A stretch of 39,837 nucleotides of DNA from Ardenticatenia bacterium (lineage in GTDB: Bacteria; Chloroflexota; Anaerolineae; 4572-78; NAK82), in the NCBI GenBank assembly GCA_003130875.1, contig QEXY01000166.1:1-39837 (forward strand). Direction: 5' to 3'. Shown in pieces: positions 5,504-14,153 of the stretch. Each line of letters starts with the position of its first letter. The stretch's first letter is position 1. A program made the translations under genes and the position numbers. The notes under the pieces were generated by a model. That model was not told the origin of the DNA, did not search any database, and was given only the letters and a program-made list of their open reading frames with translations.

Positions 5504-5532
5504 TTGACACCTGGCGGATAGTCTTATATACT
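5504..5532 (+). promoter_or_regulatory. Strong sigma-70-type promoter upstream of tRNA-Lys and the lysine operon
   Basis: TTGACA at 5504-5509 and TATACT at 5527-5532 are spaced by exactly 17 nt, with a predicted start near 5539. It is the only strong promoter I find on this strand between here and lysW. It is therefore the best candidate for driving tRNA-Lys and, by read-through, the leader peptide and lysine operon. A weaker promoter inside or next to the tRNA gene cannot be excluded by eye. Confidence 0.75.
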
Positions 5533-5653: not shown

Positions 5654-5744
5654 ATCCGAGCCGCTCCCGTCAGGGAGCGGTAGGGGCGACCAGCCGATCG
5701 CCCCCTACCCCGCGCGCGGCTCGGATTGAGACAAACCTTGTCTC
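5654..5744 (+). other. Branched hairpin cluster between promoter and tRNA-Lys; possible structured RNA or dispersed palindromic repeat
   Basis: ATCCGAG (5654-5660) pairs with CTCGGAT (5720-5726). It encloses a perfect 8-bp hairpin (CCGCTCCC/GGGAGCGG, 5661-5680) and a second hairpin (TAGGGGCGA with TCGCCCCCTA, 5681-5707). A further 7-bp hairpin, GAGACAA/TTGTCTC, follows at 5728-5744. None has a T tract, so they are not obvious terminators. The TAGGGGCGA palindrome resembles dispersed repeats I recall from other GC-rich genomes; this is not verified. Confidence 0.45.
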
Positions 5745-5796: not shown

Positions 5797-5870
<74 letters not shown>

Positions 5871-5926
5871 TGCATTGCAAGCCGCGCGGTTACGGCAATC
5901 GATCCCGTCAAGCAGGAGCGAGAGGC

Positions 5927-5995
5927 GTGAACAACCCCGAGCGACGCATCGTCAAGTCGAAGCACGCGAAGAAGCCGGACCCTGGGTCTGGATAG
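5927..5995 (+). CDS. Lysine-rich attenuator leader peptide of the lysine operon
   Basis: This 22-codon reading frame starts with GTG at 5927, has the ribosome binding site AGGAG (5914-5918) 8 nt upstream, and stops at TAG 5993-5995. Lysine occupies positions 10, 12, 15 and 16, within the run KSKHAKK, and all four codons are AAG. The tandem pair lies at 5969-5974, directly before the pause hairpin, and the stop codon lies inside the antiterminator arm. Its translation, rather than its product, is the likely function: the ribosome senses charged tRNA-Lys. The clustering of Lys codons, the ribosome binding site and the downstream terminator match amino-acid operon leaders such as trp and his. 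Not experimentally shown here. Confidence 0.82.
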   Translation: MNNPERRIVKSKHAKKPDPGSG

Positions 5996-6042
5996 CGGCG
6001 TTTATACACCAGTTGGAATCGTCAGGCCGGTACTCCAGATCC
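5975..6042 (+). promoter_or_regulatory. Pause hairpin and antiterminator of the lysine operon attenuator
   Basis: Segment 1 (5975-5981, CCGGACC) pairs with part of segment 2 (5985-5991, GGTCTGG) as a 7-bp pause hairpin with a 3-nt loop. Segment 2 (5984-5999) alternatively pairs with segment 3 (6026-6042). That gives nine pairs 5984-5992:6034-6042 (one G-U), a bulged C6033, then 5993-5994:6031-6032, one G-G mismatch and 5996-5999:6026-6029, 15 pairs in total. This antiterminator uses the entire 5' arm of the terminator, so the two are mutually exclusive. A ribosome stalled at AAG-AAG (5969-5974) should mask segment 1 and leave segment 2 free; one reaching the stop codon would cover segment 2. 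Confidence 0.8.
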
Positions 6043-6072
6043 ACAAGGAAACAGGGTACCGGCTTTTGTTTT
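6024..6072 (+). terminator. Intrinsic terminator (attenuator) before lysW
   Basis: GCCGGTACTC (6026-6035) pairs with GGGTACCGGC (6054-6063) through ten pairs including one G-U, with an 18-nt loop, and is followed by TTTTGTTTT (6064-6072). It lies 46 nt before the lysW start and inside the operon leader, so it acts as a regulated terminator if the antiterminator model is right. A simple terminator for the tRNA transcript is the alternative reading. Confidence 0.88.
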
Positions 6073-6118: not shown

Positions 6119-6292
6119 ATGCCCCAGACAGCCGCTTGCCCTGAGTGCGATGCCCAAATTACGCTGCGCGACGACACGCTGGAAGGCGAGATCGTCCAGT
6201 GCCCTGATTGCGGAGTCGAGTTGGAGGTGCTCAGCCTCGATCCGCCTGAGCTCGATCTGGCACCCGCCGAGGAAGAGGACTGGGGCGAGTAG
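6119..6292 (+). CDS. lysW: LysW, amino-group carrier protein for lysine biosynthesis
   Basis: LysW is a small acidic carrier. The gamma-carboxyl of its C-terminal Glu is joined to the alpha-amino group of AAA, protecting and carrying the intermediate through LysZ, LysY and LysJ. The 57 residues contain a zinc ribbon (Cys7, Cys10, Cys28, Cys31), an acidic tail and the diagnostic C-terminus EDWGE. The protein has no lysine residue at all. AGGAGG (6106-6111) lies 7 nt before the ATG. It is the first structural gene after the attenuator and is followed after 5 nt by lysX, whose product loads it. Confidence 0.97.
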
Positions 6293-6297
6293 CACCT

Positions 6298-7221
6298 ATG
6301 GCCGAGATCACCGCCCATACGCGCATCGCGGTGTTGCTCGACCGTGTGCGCGTCGAGGAGAAGCTGCTTCTGCAGGCGTTCGAAGCGCGTCACATTCCGG
6401 TTGATGTGCGCGATGATCGCGCGCTCATCCTCGACCTGGACGCGCATCGCCGCAAGGAGACGACCGACACCTATGGGCGTGGTGAATGGGTGCGCTACGC
6501 CGTGGTGCTTGATCGCTGCATCACCCATGCGCGCGCCGTGGCTGCGCTGCGCATCCTGAACGATTGGGGCATTTGCACCATCAACCCCGTGGATGTGGTT
6601 GAGACGTGCGGCGACAAACTGGCAACCAGCTCCGCCCTGGTGCGCGCCGGCGTCCCCACCCCCCGAGTGATGGTCGCCTTCACACCCGAAGCGGCCCTGC
6701 AAGCTATCGAGACGATGGGCTACCCGGTCGTGCTCAAACCGGCCATCGGCTCGTGGGGGCGCTTGCTCAGCAAAGTCAACGATCGCGATGCGGCGGAGGC
6801 CATCCTCGAACACAAACAGGTGTTGGGCAGCTACCCGCACCACGTCTTCTATATCCAGGAATACATCCCCAAACCGGCGCGTGACATCCGCGCGTTTGTG
6901 GTAGGTGACGAGACGATTTGTGCCATCTATCGTTATTCAGACCATTGGATCACCAACACGGCGCGCGGCGGCCGTGCGGTCAACTGCCCGGTCACACCCG
7001 AATTGCACGCGCTGGCGCTGGCCGCGGCACGCGCTGTCGGCGGCGGTGTTGTCGCCGTGGATATCCTGGAGACTCAGGATGGGCGGCTGTTGGTCAATGA
7101 GGTCAACCACACCACCGAGTTTCGCAATAGCATCGACACCACCGGGGTTGATATTCCCGGGCGGATTGTGGAGTATGTGCTCCAGGTCGCTGCCGAGCGC
7201 GCCGATCAAGGCGAATCCTGA
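6298..7221 (+). CDS. lysX: LysX, ATP-dependent LysW-alpha-aminoadipate ligase
   Basis: This 307-residue ATP-grasp enzyme of the RimK/LysX/ArgX group couples AAA to the C-terminal Glu of LysW. Visible hallmarks are the central ATP-binding run [17 protein letters not shown], the stretch [21 protein letters not shown] and the metal-binding end [12 protein letters not shown] followed by TTGVDIPG. These match the Thermus LysX pattern as I remember it. The ATG is 5 nt after the lysW stop; its ribosome binding site would be the GGGGCGAG at the end of lysW. It is the only such ligase in the window, so whether it also serves ornithine synthesis (ArgX activity) cannot be told here. The lysine codons here are 2 AAG and 5 AAA, unlike the all-AAG leader peptide. 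Confidence 0.96.
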
Positions 7222-7326
7222 AGGACCAAGCCATCGCGCAGCGATCGTCGACGACGCGGCAGTGCCGCATGGCCCATCCAGTGACATCCCGCAACCGAGG
7301 TGACGAGTGATCTCGGAGAGGTTCGC

Positions 7327-8370
7327 ATGGCAACCGAAGAGAGACGGAAAGTCAGCATCGTAGGCGGCAGTGGCTATGTGGGAGGTGAGCTGCTGCGCCT
7401 GCTCCTCTTTCATCCCCATGTCGAGGTGAAGCAAGTCACCTCGGCCAGCCAGGCGGGGCGCTACGTGCACACGGTTCATCCTAATTTGCGCGGCGTCACG
7501 ACGCTTCAGTTCACCCATCCCGACGTGTTGAGCGAGACCGACATCCTCTTTCTGGCACTGCCCCATGGACAGGCAGCGCGTTCCATCGAGCGTTACGCCG
7601 CGCTTGCCCGGTACCTCATTGATTGTTCGGCCGACTTCCGCCTGCGCGACCCGGCCGCCTATGTGCGCTGGTACGAGATGGAACATCCGGCCAAGGATTG
7701 GTTGGCGCGTTTCGTCTACGGCCTGCCGGAGCGCTATCGAGCGGCCCTCAACGGCGCGCACTATGCCAGCGGGGTGGGCTGCAACGCCACCGCCGCGATT
7801 CTAGGCCTGGCGCCGCTGGCAGATGCCGGCCTGCTGCGCGAAGCGGTCGTGGACATCAAGGTGGGCTCGTCGGAAGCGGGGGCGCAACCCTCGGCCAGTT
7901 CCCATCACCCGGAGCGCAGCGGGGTGATCCGTCCGTTCAAACCCACCGGCCACCGCCACCAGGCAGAGGTGATCCAGGCGCTGGGGAACGGGTTCCCGTT
8001 GCACTTCTCGGTGACATCGGTGGACGTGGTGCGCGGGGTGTTGGCGACGTGCCATTGCCTGCTCCACCGCGCTGTCAGCGAAAAGGAGGTATGGCAGCTC
8101 TACCGAGCGGCTTATCAGCACGAACCCTTTATCCGGCTGGTGCGCAGCAACATTGGCATCCACCGCTTCCCGGAGCCCAAGCTGTTGGCCGGATCAAACT
8201 TCTGCGACATCGGTTTCGAGGTCGACCCGGACACCGGCCGCGTGGTGGTGCTGGCTGCGTTGGACAATCTGATGAAAGGCGCCGCCGGCAGCGCGGTGCA
8301 AAGCATGAACGTGATGCTGGGCTGGGAAGAGACCGCCGGCCTGACCTTTCCTGGCCTGCATCCCATTTGA
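7327..8370 (+). CDS. lysY: LysY, LysW-gamma-aminoadipyl-6-phosphate reductase
   Basis: This ArgC-like NADPH-dependent reductase turns the LysW-bound aminoadipyl phosphate into the semialdehyde. The 347 residues start with a Rossmann nucleotide-binding motif (VSIVGGSGYVGGELLRLL) and carry the catalytic Cys152 in GVGCNATAA. The conserved SSEAGAQPS and HRHQAEVIQAL segments follow, and a C-terminal region ends in LDNLMKGAAGSAVQ. I chose the ATG at 7327 because GGAGAGG (7314-7320) lies 6 nt before it; a GTG at 7300 would add nine residues without a ribosome binding site. The 105 nt between lysX and this gene is the longest gap inside the lys operon and contains only a small GCGGC/GCCGC hairpin near 7257-7269. 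Confidence 0.95.
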   Translation: MATEERRKVSIVGGSGYVGGELLRLLLFHPHVEVKQVTSASQAGRYVHTVHPNLRGVTTLQFTHPDVLSETDILFLALPHGQAARSIERYAALARYLIDCSADFRLRDPAAYVRWYEMEHPAKDWLARFVYGLPERYRAALNGAHYASGVGCNATAAILGLAPLADAGLLREAVVDIKVGSSEAGAQPSASSHHPERSGVIRPFKPTGHRHQAEVIQALGNGFPLHFSVTSVDVVRGVLATCHCLLHRAVSEKEVWQLYRAAYQHEPFIRLVRSNIGIHRFPEPKLLAGSNFCDIGFEVDPDTGRVVVLAALDNLMKGAAGSAVQSMNVMLGWEETAGLTFPGLHPI

Positions 8371-8392
8371 TCCGGTGGGGAGAGCCTGTCCT

Positions 8393-9199
8393 ATGTTGGT
8401 GATCAAGATCGGTGGTGCGGAAGGGATCAACTATGATTTCATCGCGGAGGACATTGCACACCTCATCGCGCAAGGTGAGCGCATGGTCATCGTGCACGGC
8501 GGCTCGGCAGCCACCAACCAGGTCGCGCAAGCGTTGGGTCATCCGCCCCAATTCGTCACCTCGGTGAGCGGCTACACCAGCCGGCGCACCGACCGGCGCA
8601 CGTTGGAGATCTTCGAGATGGTCTATTGCGGCCAGATGAACAAGGGATGGGTGGAGCGATTGCACCAGCGCGGCGTCAACGCCATTGGCCTGAGCGGGTT
8701 GGACGGCAAGCTGTGGCAGGGGACGCGCAAGGATGCCATCACCATCCTGGATGAACGCGGGCGGCGGCGGGTGCTGCGCGATGACTACACCGGCCGGGTG
8801 GAACAGGTCAATACCGCATTGCTCCATATGCTGCTCGAGGCGGGCTACACCCCGGTGCTCACCCCCCCTGCGATCTCGTATCAGGGCGAAGCGATCAACG
8901 TGGACGGCGACCGCGCCGCTGCCGCCACCGCCGTCGCGTTGCAGGCGGAGACGCTCATCATGCTTTCCAACGTGCCCGGTCTTCTGGAACGTTTTCCTGA
9001 CGAGAGCTCCTTGATCCGCCAGATCGCTGCCAACCGACTGGACGATTTTATGGCCGCGGCGCAGGAGCGCATGAAGAAAAAGGTGCTCGGCGCCGGCGAA
9101 GCGATCGCCGGCGGGGTGCGGCGCGTCATCTTCGCCGACGGACGGGTCGAGCACCCCATCCAACGTGCCTTGGCAGGAGAAGGGACGGTGATCGCATGA
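8393..9199 (+). CDS. lysZ: LysZ, LysW-aminoadipate kinase
   Basis: This 268-residue ArgB-like amino acid kinase phosphorylates the side-chain carboxylate of LysW-bound AAA. It begins MLVIKIGGAEG with the kinase glycine-rich start and continues with MVIVHGGSAATNQVAQALG, the substrate-side stretch TSVSGYTSRRT and INVDGDRAAAATA. LSNVPGLLERFPDE and a C-terminal IAGGVRRVIFADGRVEHPI follow. The length matches LysZ rather than the longer bacterial ArgB. The ATG at 8393 follows GGGGAGAG by about 8 nt; a GTG at 8375 overlaps that ribosome binding site. Its stop overlaps the lysJ start (ATGA), implying translational coupling. Confidence 0.95.
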   Translation: MLVIKIGGAEGINYDFIAEDIAHLIAQGERMVIVHGGSAATNQVAQALGHPPQFVTSVSGYTSRRTDRRTLEIFEMVYCGQMNKGWVERLHQRGVNAIGLSGLDGKLWQGTRKDAITILDERGRRRVLRDDYTGRVEQVNTALLHMLLEAGYTPVLTPPAISYQGEAINVDGDRAAAATAVALQAETLIMLSNVPGLLERFPDESSLIRQIAANRLDDFMAAAQERMKKKVLGAGEAIAGGVRRVIFADGRVEHPIQRALAGEGTVIA

Positions 9200-10425
9200 G
9201 AGCCGGGGAACACCTGATGCTGATGGAAGAGATCATCGCGCTCGAGGAGCGGCACACTTCGGGGCTGAATGTCAAGCGCCCGATCGCATTGGTGCGCGGT
9301 CAGGGCGCTATGGTGTGGGATGCCGATGGCCGCGCGTATCTCGACTGCATGACCGGTCACGGTGTCGCCACGCTGGGGCACTGTCATCCCGAGGTGACCG
9401 CTGCCATCCAGACACAGGCAGCCACGCTGGTCGCCTGCAGCGAGGCGGTCTATAACGACCAGCGCGCTGCTCTGATGGAAGAGCTAACCCACCATACGCC
9501 GGGCGACCTCAAGCGCGTCTTCCTGTGCAATTCGGGCGCCGAGTCGATTGAGGCGGCGATCAAGTTCGCGCGTTTCTTCACCGGGCGCACCGAGGTGGTC
9601 GCTGCCATGCGCGGCTTTCACGGGCGCACGCTGGGCGCGCTCAGCGCCACGTGGAACGCCAAGTACCGCGACCCGTTTCTGCCGCTGGTGCCGGGCTTCC
9701 GCCACGTGCCCTTCAACAACCTGGCCGCTATGGAAGATGCCCTCACCGACCAGACCGCTGCGGTCATCATCGAGGTGATCCAGGGTGAGGGGGGAGTCCA
9801 TCCGGCCGACCCGGCTTATCTGGAAGGGTTGCGGGCGTTGTGTACGGAGCGTGGAGTGTTGCTCATCGTGGACGAGGTGCAAACCGGCATGGGGCGCACC
9901 GGCCGCTGGTTCGCCTGTGAGCACTTCGGGGTGCTGCCCGATATGCTCTGCCTGGGCAAGGCGCTGGGAGGCGGCGTGCCGATGGGCGCCGTGATCTGGC
10001 GCGAGGCGTTGGGCAAGTTGCCGGCCGGGATCCACGGCTCCACGTTTGGCGGCAACCCGCTTGCCTGTGCCGCCAGCCGCGCCGTGGTGCACGTGATGGA
10101 GCGGGACGACCTGCCGGGACGTGCCGCCCGCCTGGGCGCAAAGCTGTTGGCCGACCTGCGCGCCATTCGCAGCCCGCTGATCCGCGAGGTGCGCGGACGG
10201 GGGCTGATGGTCGGTGTGGAGTTGCGTCGGCGTGCGACACAGGTCTTGCGCGCTCTGATGGAACGCGGCGTGCTGGCCATGCCGGCCGGCAGCACGGTGG
10301 TGCGGCTGCTCCCACCGCTGGTCATCGCCGAGGAACAATTGGACCAGGTGGTCCAGGCCATGGCCCAGGCACTCGCCGATGTTATGGACACACGGGGCGA
10401 AGCCGCCCGTGAAGAAGAGGAGTGA
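9196..10425 (+). CDS. lysJ: LysJ, LysW-aminoadipate semialdehyde aminotransferase
   Basis: This PLP-dependent class III aminotransferase (ArgD-like, 409 residues) converts the LysW-bound semialdehyde to LysW-lysine using glutamate. Marks of the family are GHGVATLGHCHP, FLCNSGAESIEAAIKFAR, the PLP Asp in LLIVDEVQTGMGRTG, the Schiff-base Lys255 in CLGKALGGGVPMGA and STFGGNPLACAA. The start ATG overlaps the lysZ stop by 4 nt. In-frame ATGs seven and nine codons later are less likely because they would break the overlap. The C-terminus ends in a short acidic tail (EAAREEEE). Confidence 0.95.
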   Translation: MRAGEHLMLMEEIIALEERHTSGLNVKRPIALVRGQGAMVWDADGRAYLDCMTGHGVATLGHCHPEVTAAIQTQAATLVACSEAVYNDQRAALMEELTHHTPGDLKRVFLCNSGAESIEAAIKFARFFTGRTEVVAAMRGFHGRTLGALSATWNAKYRDPFLPLVPGFRHVPFNNLAAMEDALTDQTAAVIIEVIQGEGGVHPADPAYLEGLRALCTERGVLLIVDEVQTGMGRTGRWFACEHFGVLPDMLCLGKALGGGVPMGAVIWREALGKLPAGIHGSTFGGNPLACAASRAVVHVMERDDLPGRAARLGAKLLADLRAIRSPLIREVRGRGLMVGVELRRRATQVLRALMERGVLAMPAGSTVVRLLPPLVIAEEQLDQVVQAMAQALADVMDTRGEAAREEEE

Positions 10426-11570
10426 TGGTCGCCCATCCGGGTGGTGATATGGACGCGGCGGCTGCGATCGACCTGCTGGAAACCCTGGTGCGCATCCCCA
10501 GCCCATCGGGCACGGAGGGCGAAGCGGCCCGTTGGTTGGTGGGCTGGATGCAACAACGCGGATTCGAAGCGTATGTCGACGCAGCCGGCAACGCGCTGGG
10601 CGTGCGGGGCCGGGGCGCGAACCGCATCCTGCTCTTGGGGCACATCGACACCTTCCCCGGCACGTTGCCGGTACGACGCGAGGGCGATTGGCTCACCGGG
10701 CGCGGCAGCGTGGACGCCAAGGGTGCGCTGTGTGCCTTTGCCGTTGCCGCAGCCACGCTGCCGGTAGAGCCGGACTGGCAGATCATCGTCGCCGGCGCAG
10801 TGGAGGAGGAGGTGGCATCCAGCCGCGGCGCGCGCCACCTGTTGCGCACACTGGCACCGCCGTGTTGCTGTGTCATCGGCGAGCCAGGTGGCTGGGAACG
10901 GATCACACTGGGATACAAGGGCCGTCTCATCGTCGAGCTCCATTGGCGTGCTCCGTTTGCCCATTCAGCTGGCCCACAGCAGTTGCCGGCCGAGAGGGCA
11001 ATCGCTCTGTGGAATGCCCTCGTGGCCCATTGCCAGACATTCAACGCAGGACGCGCTAGCGCCTTCGAGCGCCTGGAACCCGCCCTGCGCCACATCGCCA
11101 CGCGCGACGAGGGGGCTTATTGCAACGTTGAGATGACCGTCAGCTTCCGCGTGCCTCCCGAGCTGAGTCCGTCCACGCTCGCCGAACAGGTGCAGCGCTG
11201 GATCTCCGAGGACGGGTTTTCGCTTGTGCGAGCGGGAGATACTGACGATGACGCGAACCGCGATGAGCGGATGCAGCTGGTATTCTTCGGAGCAGAGGAG
11301 GCGTTTCGCGCCCCCAAGAACAATCCACTGGTGCGCAGCTTGCTGCGTGCCATCCGGCAAACCGGCGGCACACCACGCTTTGTGTACAAGACGGGCACCT
11401 CGGACATGAACGTCGTAGGGCCGCCATGGGGTGTACCGATCGTCGCTTATGGGCCAGGTGACTCGACGCTGGATCACACGCCTGGAGAGCGGATTCATCT
11501 GGGTGAGTACTTGCGTGCCATCGAAGTGCTTCGGGAAGCATTGGCAGCATTACAGCGGGGTGCCATATGA
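10425..11570 (+). CDS. lysK: LysK, LysW-lysine hydrolase
   Basis: This M20-family metallopeptidase (ArgE/DapE-like) cleaves the bond to LysW and releases free lysine, regenerating the carrier. It shows LVRIPSPSGTEG, the metal-binding LLLGHIDTFPG with the following catalytic region, GRGSVDAKGALCAF, the Glu pair in VAGAVEEEVASSRGAR and VIGEPGGW. Near the C-terminus are YKTGTSDMNVVG and the last metal-site region GPGDSTLDHTPGERI. The start is uncertain. ATG 10425 overlaps the lysJ stop by one base (TGATG), GTG 10422 overlaps by four, and ATG 10449 has a ribosome-binding-like GGTGGTGAT just before it and fits the N-terminus of homologues. The 3' end overlaps the homocitrate synthase start by 4 nt. 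Confidence 0.94.
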   Translation: MVAHPGGDMDAAAAIDLLETLVRIPSPSGTEGEAARWLVGWMQQRGFEAYVDAAGNALGVRGRGANRILLLGHIDTFPGTLPVRREGDWLTGRGSVDAKGALCAFAVAAATLPVEPDWQIIVAGAVEEEVASSRGARHLLRTLAPPCCCVIGEPGGWERITLGYKGRLIVELHWRAPFAHSAGPQQLPAERAIALWNALVAHCQTFNAGRASAFERLEPALRHIATRDEGAYCNVEMTVSFRVPPELSPSTLAEQVQRWISEDGFSLVRAGDTDDDANRDERMQLVFFGAEEAFRAPKNNPLVRSLLRAIRQTGGTPRFVYKTGTSDMNVVGPPWGVPIVAYGPGDSTLDHTPGERIHLGEYLRAIEVLREALAALQRGAI

Positions 11571-12889
11571 CGCCGAACAGCCCTTTCCAGTTCAGTCGCT
11601 ATCAAGCTCGACCCCTGGAGATCATCGACACCACCCTGCGGGAGGGGTCGCAGAGCTCGTTGTTGCACGACCATTATAAGTACTTCTTCAATCAACAGGA
11701 TAAGGTCGAGATCGTCCGTGCCTTGATCATCTACGGTGTCAAGTTCATTGAGTTGTTCGCCCCCATCGTCAGCGCCCAAGAGCGCGAGGATGTGGAAGCA
11801 ATCAAAGCGGTGCGCGATGAGCTGATCACCCAAAAGGGATATACCTTCCTCCTAGCGCACGTGCGCTGTCATCCGGCGGATGTCGAGTCAGCCATCGAGG
11901 CCGGCTTCGACGGGTTGAACTTTTACATCGGCACGTCACGTTTTGCCCGCGACGCCAGCCACGGCAAGGACCTGGATGAGATCGTGCGCGGTGCGCGCTC
12001 GTTGATCGAACAGGTGCGACGCGACTATCCGCACTTGATCTTGCGTTTCAGCGGCGAGGATGCCTTCCGCACCCGCCCGGAACACCTTTTCCGCGTCTAT
12101 GACGAGATTGTCCCGTTGGTGCACCGCCTGGGCGCCCCGGATACGGTGGGGGTGGCAACTCCAGCGGCCGTGGCGCGTCAGGTGGCCATGTTGCGCCAGC
12201 GTTATCCCGGTGTCGATCTGGAGGGGCACTTCCACGACGACCGCGGCTTTGCGCTGATCAATGCGTTGGAGGCAGTGCGCGCCGGGATGCGTTACATCAA
12301 TACCACTATCCTCGGCATTGGGGAGCGCTCCGGCATCACCTCGATGACCGCCTTGCTGTTCAACCTCTTTGTCGATCGCGAATACGACAAGCTGGAAGGC
12401 TACAACCTGCGTGGCTCCTATCCCATCAACGTCCTGCTGGCGTCCAAGCTCAACAAGCTGGTGCAATCGAAGGAGCCGGTGAGCTTGACCAACCGCACGC
12501 ACACCAGTGGGGTACACCAAAAGGCGGTGCTCAACGACCACGACACCTATGAAGCGCATCCGCTGGATCAGTTCGGCGTCACCGAGTCCGAGATTCTGTT
12601 GGGGCCGCTGAGCGGATGGAATGTCATTTATTACTTCCTCAAGGAGATCAAATACTTCCGCATCGACGAGGAGACCGCCAAGGAAATCACACGGGTTTTC
12701 AAGCAAAGGGTCTATAATATCAGACCAGACGAATCGCCCGGCCAGATCTTGATCGACATCGCCGAAAAGGAGTTCAAGCTGAGCAAGCTGGAGATACCGG
12801 AGCCCTACCGCGACGCGGTCACGCAACGCCTGGACGCGACCCGTCCGGAGGAACGAGGCGAGGCACTCAATGGGACACACATTCGCTGA
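11567..12889 (+). CDS. Homocitrate synthase (divergent, DRE-TIM metallolyase family)
   Basis: It should condense acetyl-CoA with 2-oxoglutarate to homocitrate, the entry step of the AAA route. The 440 residues start the TIM barrel with [15 protein letters not shown] (DRE-TIM signature) and include [19 protein letters not shown]-like [10 protein letters not shown] and the metal-binding [26 protein letters not shown] is close to the homocitrate synthase version of this region, and [12 protein letters not shown] follows. Two deviations stand out: Ser replaces the usual Glu in REGEQ, and HFHDD replaces HGHND. It is about 60 residues longer than the Thermus enzyme as I recall it. The operon context favours homocitrate synthase over isopropylmalate or citramalate synthase. 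Start and stop overlap lysK (4 nt) and the next gene (20 nt). Confidence 0.85.
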
Positions 12890-14153
12890 GAAGCTGCTTG
12901 CGCGCAACGTCGGACTGGCACATGTCCAGCCCGGTCAGGTGATCGACGCCACCCCGGATCTAGTGCTGAGTCACGACAACACAGCCGCGATCATCCGTAC
13001 CTGGCGTCAGCTCGAGCTGTCCCGGGTCAAGCATCCCGAACGGCTCGCCATCGTGCTCGACCATGCCGCTCCGGCGCCCACCACCCAGCATGCCCAGAAC
13101 CATGCCGAAATTCGCCAGTTTGTTGCCGAGCAAGGCATCCCCCACTTCTTCGATATCGGGCGTGGCATCTGCCACCAGGTGTTGTGTGAGGAAGGATTGA
13201 TCCGCCCTGGCATGCTGGTGCTCGGCGCCGACAGCCACAGCACCCACTATGGCGCGTTGGGCGCGTTCGGCGCCGGCATCGGCCGCAGTGAGGTTGCGGC
13301 GCTGTGGGCGACCGGAACGTTGTGGCTGCGCGTGCCCGAAAGCATCAAAATCACCGTCACCGGTCGGCTGGGCGAATGGGTCTCGGCGAAGGATATTGGC
13401 CTGTACATCATCGGTCAGCTGGGCGCCGACGCGGGTAACTATGCCTCAGTCGAGCTGCACGGCGAGACCATCGCCCAACTCTCGATGGAAAGCCGCTTCG
13501 TGTTGCCCAACCTGATGGCCGAGATGGGGGTCAAAAATGCCTGGCTGGCGCCTGACCGGGTGACACTGGAATGGGTCGTTGCCCAGAACCAGAATGCTGA
13601 TCCCGAATTCGCGGCACATTTCTTCGCCCATGCCGTCTATCCAGATCCGGATGCGCCCTATGCTGCCGAGTTCACTTTCGATGTGACCGCTCTCGAACCC
13701 CAGATCGCCTGTCCGCATGCAGTCGACAATGTGGTGCCCATTTCGCAAGTTGCCGGGACGCGGGTGCATCAAGCTTTCATCGGCACCTGCACCAATGCCC
13801 GGCTGGAGGACCTGGCCGTTGCGGCGCGGATCCTGCGGGGTCGCCGGGTACATGCGGACACGCGCCTGTTGGTGATCCCGGCCTCGGCGCGGGTGCTGCG
13901 GGCCGCGCTACACGAGGGTTACCTGGATACATTGTTGGCCGCCGGTGCCATCATCGGACCGCCCGGTTGCGGCCCGTGCATGGGCAACCATCTGGGCGTT
14001 CCGGCGCCGGGCGAGGTGACCATCAGCACGGCCAATCGCAATTTCCGCGGCCGTATGGGCACCCGCGAAGCGGACATCTATCTGGCAAGCCCGGCGGTGG
14101 TGGCCGCCAGCGCCGTCACCGGCCGTATCACCCATCCCGCTGAATTGGAGTGA
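12870..14153 (+). CDS. lysT: Homoaconitase large subunit (LeuC/aconitase family)
   Basis: Together with the small subunit it isomerises homocitrate to homoisocitrate, carrying a [4Fe-4S] cluster. The 427 residues match the short LeuC-type subunit: [41 protein letters not shown] and [14 protein letters not shown]. The cluster ligands are Cys307, Cys367 and Cys370, the last two in [20 protein letters not shown] and [15 protein letters not shown] follow. The start overlaps the homocitrate synthase gene by 20 nt, and the stop overlaps or adjoins the small subunit. Isopropylmalate isomerase is the sequence-level alternative; the lysine context decides the call. Confidence 0.93.

Follow-up and report, generated by a model that had tools for sequence, protein, structure and literature searches.

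A probable ribosome-mediated attenuator of a LysW-type lysine operon, and a Chloroflexota-wide family of leaders with one RNA chassis and exchangeable sensor codons

The DNA analysed here (the window) is a stretch of 39,837 nucleotides from an Ardenticatenia bacterium of the phylum Chloroflexota (assembly GCA_003130875.1, contig QEXY01000166.1). The part under study carries a candidate promoter, a tRNA-Lys gene, a short leader ORF overlapped and followed by alternative RNA hairpins, and a run of lysine-biosynthesis genes:

5504..5532, plus strand: candidate sigma-70-like promoter, TTGACA-17-TATACT (11/12 consensus positions; 0.3 expected in shuffles)
5797..5870, plus strand: tRNA-Lys(CTT), which reads AAG; 56 nt 5' of the leader start
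5914..5918, plus strand: Shine-Dalgarno sequence AGGAG, 8-nt spacing to the leader GTG
5927..5995, plus strand: leader ORF, 22 codons, VNNPERRIVKSKHAKKPDPGSG*; homologous leaders in other genomes
5954..5974, plus strand: sensor codons, AAG at 5954, 5960, 5969 and 5972, within the last 7 codons 5' of the hairpin
5975..5991, plus strand: segment 1:2 hairpin, CCGGACC-CTG-GGTCTGG, 7 pairs; sequence-conserved core of the family
5984..6042, plus strand: antiterminator, 5984-6000 with 6026-6042, 15 pairs
6000..6004, plus strand: G-Y-T-[TG]-G tract, here GTTTA, 9-13 nt past the hairpin
6026..6072, plus strand: intrinsic terminator, 6026-6063 with a 10-pair outer stem, tail TTTTGTTTT
6119..6292, plus strand: lysW, 57 aa, CPEC...CPDCG...EDWGE; DNA-similar lysW in relatives
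6298..7221, plus strand: lysX (TIGR02144, 1e-101)
7300..8370, plus strand: lysY/argC-type reductase (TIGR01850, 1.7e-113)
8375..9199, plus strand: lysZ, [LysW]-aminoadipate kinase (NF010659, 2e-130)
9196..10425, plus strand: lysJ-type transaminase (NF042418, 2.6e-137, under that profile's own cut-off; over the TIGR00707 cut-off)
10422..11570, plus strand: lysK, [LysW]-lysine hydrolase (NF003367, 2.2e-119)
11567..12889, plus strand: homocitrate synthase (TIGR02146, 5.6e-67, under the curated cut-off)
12870..14153, plus strand: homoaconitase / IPM dehydratase-type large subunit (TIGR02086, 4.8e-156)

The profile matches of the downstream genes, together with the EDWGE end of LysW, bear out an earlier reading of the DNA (the first-pass annotation) in which the operon was called LysW-type; the 46 nt that it counted between the terminator end at 6072 and the lysW ATG at 6119 are likewise correct. 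The promoter candidate is the first one upstream of the tRNA and the leader, lies 264 nt 5' of tRNA-Lys, and is separated from the leader by no terminator that we could find. A G+C-rich inverted repeat, spotted by eye, occupies 5660-5727, between the promoter candidate and tRNA-Lys. AAG, the only Lys codon used in the window leader, is decoded by the adjoining tRNA-Lys(CTT), to which the assembly holds no second match of >80% identity.

The leader ORF starts with GTG at 5927 and stops with TAG at 5993-5995. Its AAG codons are numbers 10, 12, 15 and 16, and codons 15 and 16 (5969-5974) abut segment 1 of the hairpin. The 22-codon leader, ribosome binding site, four Lys codons and tandem AAG-AAG claimed in the first-pass annotation are all present in the sequence, and the 7-bp hairpin, 15-pair antiterminator and 10-pair terminator lie where it had placed them. 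Its further claim, that the antiterminator uses up the terminator's 5' arm completely, holds for the span but not for the pairing: the ten bases of that arm are all spanned, but just eight are paired, with 6030 and 6033 bulged. As in attenuators of the trp/his type, the leader has a short ORF with a start codon and a Shine-Dalgarno sequence, cognate codons sited such that a stalled ribosome would mask segment 1, mutually exclusive 1:2, 2:3 and 3:4 pairings with a U-tailed terminator, and, downstream, genes for the amino acid sensed. The segment 1:2 hairpin is a candidate pause / anti-antiterminator hairpin. The G-Y-T-[TG]-G tract, which is conserved by column composition, is suggestive of an RNA polymerase pause site.

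The leader region is more stable than shuffled sequence (z = -3.65; 0/200 shuffles), and the calculated energies are -10.4 kcal/mol for the hairpin (5975-5995 folded), -26.8 kcal/mol for the antiterminator duplex (5984-6000 / 6026-6042) and -20.3 kcal/mol for the terminator (6026-6063). The full leader, folded without constraint, pairs segment 2 with segment 3 and segment 1 with segment 4, rather than forming 1:2 and 3:4, and the alternative folds in the window are close in energy. The minimum-energy fold switches between two nearby start points: it is the antiterminator when the RNA is free from 5983, and the terminator when the RNA is free from 5985. The proposal that a stalled ribosome would mask segment 1 only is accordingly plausible as geometry, yet a shift of 1-2 nt changes the fold. 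Since energy alone leaves the outcome undecided, the order of synthesis and the position of the ribosome must matter, as they do in classical attenuators.

In the mechanism that we propose, RNA polymerase would make the leader and probably pause at hairpin 1:2 for as long as no ribosome has begun on the leader peptide. When Lys-tRNA is scarce, the ribosome would stall on the AAG codons next to the hairpin, covering segment 1; with segment 1 covered, segment 2 would pair with segment 3, and the operon would be transcribed. When Lys-tRNA is plentiful, the ribosome would translate as far as the stop codon, which lies in segment 2, and the 3:4 terminator would form. The same hairpin-antiterminator-terminator block, where it follows Arg, Pro or Ala codons in other operons, would control argC/argG, proS operons and alaS. 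Pausing, stalling and read-through are the steps that we infer from sequence.

The window element is one copy of a family block, CCRGACC-NNN-GGTCTGG-ATAG followed by a terminator. When 41 related genomes are searched at the DNA level, the block AAGAAGCCGGACCC.GGGTCYGGATAG has near-exact matches in distant genomes of the class, and a pattern that omits the Lys codons has 28 matches in 396 class genomes, as compared with 3 for a reversed-pattern control. The same block stands 5' of lysine genes in many genomes, and the block in the window is therefore more than a chance occurrence. A first covariance model, built on 19 seeds, has matches in 134/396 class genomes; a second, built on 109 matches, has matches in 189/396 class genomes and 124/222 genera, and, in a sample drawn from the phylum, in 49/400 genomes, some of them from families that do not belong to the window's class. 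The conservation figures lean to the Lys, Arg and Pro types, because the models were seeded with Lys leaders, Arg leaders and one Pro-type leader; and models, gene classes and codon counts rest on overlapping data, the phylum sample and a set of twenty further loci (below) excepted. The strict motif occurs in Chloroflexota records of Anaerolineae, Ardenticatenia, Caldilineae, Thermoflexia and Ktedonobacterales.

Outside the phylum, 15 genomes picked for the hairpin motif reach no more than 29 bits, except for one doubtful contig (L187), as compared with 40-80 bits for typical family members. An exact-pattern scan of 84,980 species returned 37 loci, about 20 of which are Chloroflexota leaders, together with one odd 'Phycisphaerales' contig; the remaining loci are without leader or terminator and resemble coding sequence or chance. 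Contig L187, labelled Phycisphaerales (SpSt-1214), carries two Lys leaders 5' of dapB (383-668), and these are the sole matches in that genome, which points to mis-binning or transfer. Within the window's class, some lysW genes have no recognisable Lys leader (L006, L010, L011, L014, L017), and no clear Lys-rich leader ORF was found 5' of lysW in class genomes that have no model match there. At about 13 loci two leaders stand in tandem (L062, L043, L064, L068, L080, L086, L103, L106, L119, L128, L156, L187, L291); all are of Lys type, each copy has a terminator, and the copies are ~150-410 nt apart. Tandem copies of an attenuator would steepen the response. The attenuator described in the first-pass annotation is real, but its scope was understated there: the element is one member of a Chloroflexota-wide family, not an isolated case.

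The codons directly 5' of the hairpin vary with the operon. Reading of the flanks reveals Lys codons 5' of lysW, lysX, homocitrate synthase, homoaconitase and dapB; Arg codons 5' of argC and argG; Pro codons 5' of proS, either directly or with a metallophosphoesterase or TIGR00730-like gene between; and Ala codons 5' of alaS. In related genomes, the Lys codons are kept at the same place, 5' of lysW and other lysine genes. Cognate codons occur only within the 8 codons nearest the hairpin on its 5' side, with at least two in 130/133 de-duplicated leaders. In a permutation of codons against genes for 49 leaders (one per family and class), for which each leader was read in the best of its three frames and genes were classed by their similarity to a small panel, the observed total was 182 cognate codons and the permuted totals had a mean of 130 and a maximum of 164, with 0/100,000 permutations reaching the observed total. 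Of twenty further loci outside model building, all but the argC locus L285, which is weak, have cognate codons, including five consecutive Ala codons 5' of alaS (L276) and Pro codons 5' of proS (L275). Codon choice is likewise distinctive: among Arg codons, AGG has a share of 39% in Arg leaders vs. 4% in the genes that follow, and among Lys codons, AAG has a share of 91% in Lys leaders vs. 71% in their genes. The preference for rare AGG and for AAG fits a sensor of translation, as expected.

The results for reading frame indicate that it is the RNA, not the peptide, that is conserved. In the cognate frame the hairpin reads P-D-x-x-S-G in 113/130 leaders and it lies in another frame in 17/130, and in 9 leaders a stop codon precedes the hairpin; the three bases of the hairpin loop are free, by column composition. 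Because the frame in which the hairpin is read varies between leaders, we conclude that RNA sequence is what is maintained; because the hairpin is identical for Lys, Arg, Pro and Ala, we conclude that it is not the specificity element and that the codons carry specificity.

Two-sided base changes occur at 9 pairs, every one in the terminator. For the antiterminator, the covarying position pairs the base after CTGG in segment 2 with the base before CCAG in segment 3, with counts of A-T 57, T-A 22, C-G 5 and G-C 2 vs. A-A 5 and T-T 10 (p = 0.010 by permutation on unique family-class-pair combinations). Each leader's own segment 3 also pairs better than swapped ones (7.81 vs. 7.13; maximum 7.62 in 200 swaps). 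In the 19-seed alignment taken alone, antiterminator covariation was not significant (119/500 shuffles). The antiterminator (2:3) and terminator (3:4) pairs thus covary in relatives, as the first-pass annotation had asked of its model, and the covariation in the antiterminator appears significant, if modest, after de-duplication. The 1:2 hairpin varies little, and its conservation may have another cause.

From the anatomy, recurrence, codon-to-gene match, frame independence and pairing observed here, we conclude that 5927-6072 is very probably a ribosome-mediated attenuator that controls the lysine operon and belongs to a Chloroflexota-wide family in which one RNA chassis is combined with exchangeable sensor codons. 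The trp/his logic that had been proposed for lysine at this locus appears well supported, both by anatomy and by the comparative test.

Other readings have to be weighed against this one. The conserved hairpin could be a site for a protein or ligand, in a riboswitch or an RNA-binding antiterminator that senses the amino acid, with the leader ORF incidental. Its sequence is strongly conserved and common to different operons, it is without an Rfam match and could conceivably be a new element, and a common role in interaction with RNAP or a protein, beside attenuation, is possible; but one hairpin serves Lys, Arg, Pro and Ala, with specificity residing in the codons, and enrichment of rare codons requires translation, and we consider this reading very unlikely. 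Known elements of this kind were also considered. A lysine riboswitch (L-box) is rejected, the window region being without an Rfam match to it, and a T-box is rejected, there being no match to the T-box covariance model in the leaders of the window region and of 12 loci. The Rfam search of the window region, at E up to 5, returned tRNA and chance matches only, with the Trp, His, Leu and Thr leaders unmatched, and in the 12 loci, searched at gathering score, the matches were limited to a CRISPR repeat, a tRNA and a T-box separate from the leaders. A terminator that acts constitutively, without regulation and with Lys codons there by chance, would be compatible with alternative folds of similar energy; it would predict neither a recurrent position of the cognate codons across many families nor covariation in the antiterminator, both of which are observed, and is extremely unlikely. 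The C-terminal PDxxSG-stop could be an arrest peptide, TnaC/SecM-like, with the nascent chain holding up the ribosome as translation terminates: P-D-x-x-S-G-stop ends most leaders, and a rule on the peptide would conserve DNA too. However, the same nucleotides occur in other frames (PGPAVW*, SQTIGLDVEVA*, GQTEGLDCCAA*) or past the stop codon, and the loop codons are unconstrained. With no single conserved frame (17/130 in other frames, 9 stopping earlier), we reject nascent-chain arrest as scarcely credible.

A further alternative is a variant of the attenuator reading that allows the same mechanism: the shared hairpin would have arisen by convergence, under constraints of pausing and pairing, and not by descent with codon switching. 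Classical attenuators, too, conserve complementary triples over large distances (PMC1262725), and the leader block is too short for a tree; but about a dozen conserved positions, including the G.U/A-U pair 3-15, the TAG and the G-Y-T tract, are shared by leaders of all four amino-acid types and between classes. We regard convergence as improbable, though worth keeping in view. Common descent of the chassis, which the shortness of the block leaves us to infer, is part of a broader proposal towards which we lean slightly: that an ancestral chassis spread by duplication through Chloroflexota and acquired new specificities by swapping the few codons 5' of the hairpin, as a counterpart of the T-box regulon, with a cognate tRNA placed in the Lys and Arg transcripts.

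A same-strand tRNA gene lies directly 5' of the leader in 3/168 leaders with at least 280 nt upstream, and in 3/3 cases the tRNA is cognate: the window and G001 both have tRNA-Lys(CTT), and G153 has tRNA-Arg(CCG) 5' of argC and its Arg leader, with a promoter-like sequence immediately 5' of tRNA-Arg. The tRNA arrangement pointed out in the first-pass annotation is therefore real, and it recurs independently with tRNA-Arg and an Arg leader. Co-transcription of tRNA and leader is likely; the independent lineages with the arrangement are few, at two. If so, a cognate tRNA in the same transcript, in the Lys and Arg cases, may couple tRNA supply and attenuation. At L067:1500-1760 (minus strand), a promoter-like site, tRNA-Arg(CCG), an Arg leader, a terminator and argC follow one another; a T-box (RF00230) at 1852-2110 of L067 is on the strand opposite the Arg leader and is a separate element.

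Attenuators of the trp/his type in Proteobacteria and Actinobacteria resemble the Chloroflexota leaders in having a leader peptide with cognate codons, exclusive hairpins and an intrinsic terminator, and in controlling biosynthesis genes and some aminoacyl-tRNA synthetase genes. They differ in that each amino acid has a separate family, whereas the Chloroflexota block is one sequence for at least Lys, Arg, Pro and Ala. Leader-peptide attenuation of the lysine cluster of Thermus thermophilus was reportedly described by Tsubouchi et al. in J Biol Chem in 2005; there, a Lys-codon leader peptide is reported likewise to precede an AAA-pathway lysine cluster, in another phylum. The T-box is likewise one chassis with specificity set by a codon, senses tRNA charging, and controls biosynthesis and aminoacyl-tRNA synthetase genes; the T-box binds tRNA directly, whereas the Chloroflexota leaders would sense charging via the translating ribosome. 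T-boxes are present in Chloroflexota (PMC3766115). Classical attenuators also govern pheST, trpS and leuS (PMC1262725). The Salmonella speF leader, which reportedly responds to arginine and controls polyamine synthesis (PMC6386406), is likewise a regulatory leader with arginine codons, but a single case outside any shared chassis.

According to the published surveys consulted, attenuation by leader peptides is mainly a feature of Proteobacteria and Actinobacteria (PMC2965389, PMC1262725, PMC3766115). In 2010 such attenuators were reported as not yet demonstrated beyond these two phyla, and a his case in Firmicutes was added (PMC2965389); an Rfam-based survey of 2013 contained His, Leu, Thr and Trp types only and suggested a gammaproteobacterial origin (PMC3766115). 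Our literature search, whose coverage left out most subscription journals, found no report of such leaders in Chloroflexota. For the window element alone the mechanism would be an ordinary one; the novelty would lie in the family, which is apparently undescribed. If the reading as a family with exchangeable codons is correct, attenuation sensed by the ribosome is capable of modular evolution in the manner of the T-box, and an operon in which three or four codons are changed should respond to a different amino acid. The family also offers a route for annotation of amino-acid-related genes in a poorly cultured phylum.

Some of the genes behind the leaders deserve separate mention. Leaders precede LysE-type translocators at L217, L232, L243 and L248: at L217, Lys codons stand 5' of a LysE-type gene (PF01810), and at L186/L232, L243 and L248, Ktedonobacteria-like leaders have runs of Gln codons 5' of LysE-type translocators. 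Leaders 5' of LysE-type exporters are at odds with a simple logic of response to starvation, since a starvation-induced exporter would be odd. The Pro-leader operons L256, L257, L261 and L262 open with a small metallophosphoesterase, TIGR00730-like or MazG-like gene, and in the two that were checked, L256 and L257, proS follows the first gene.
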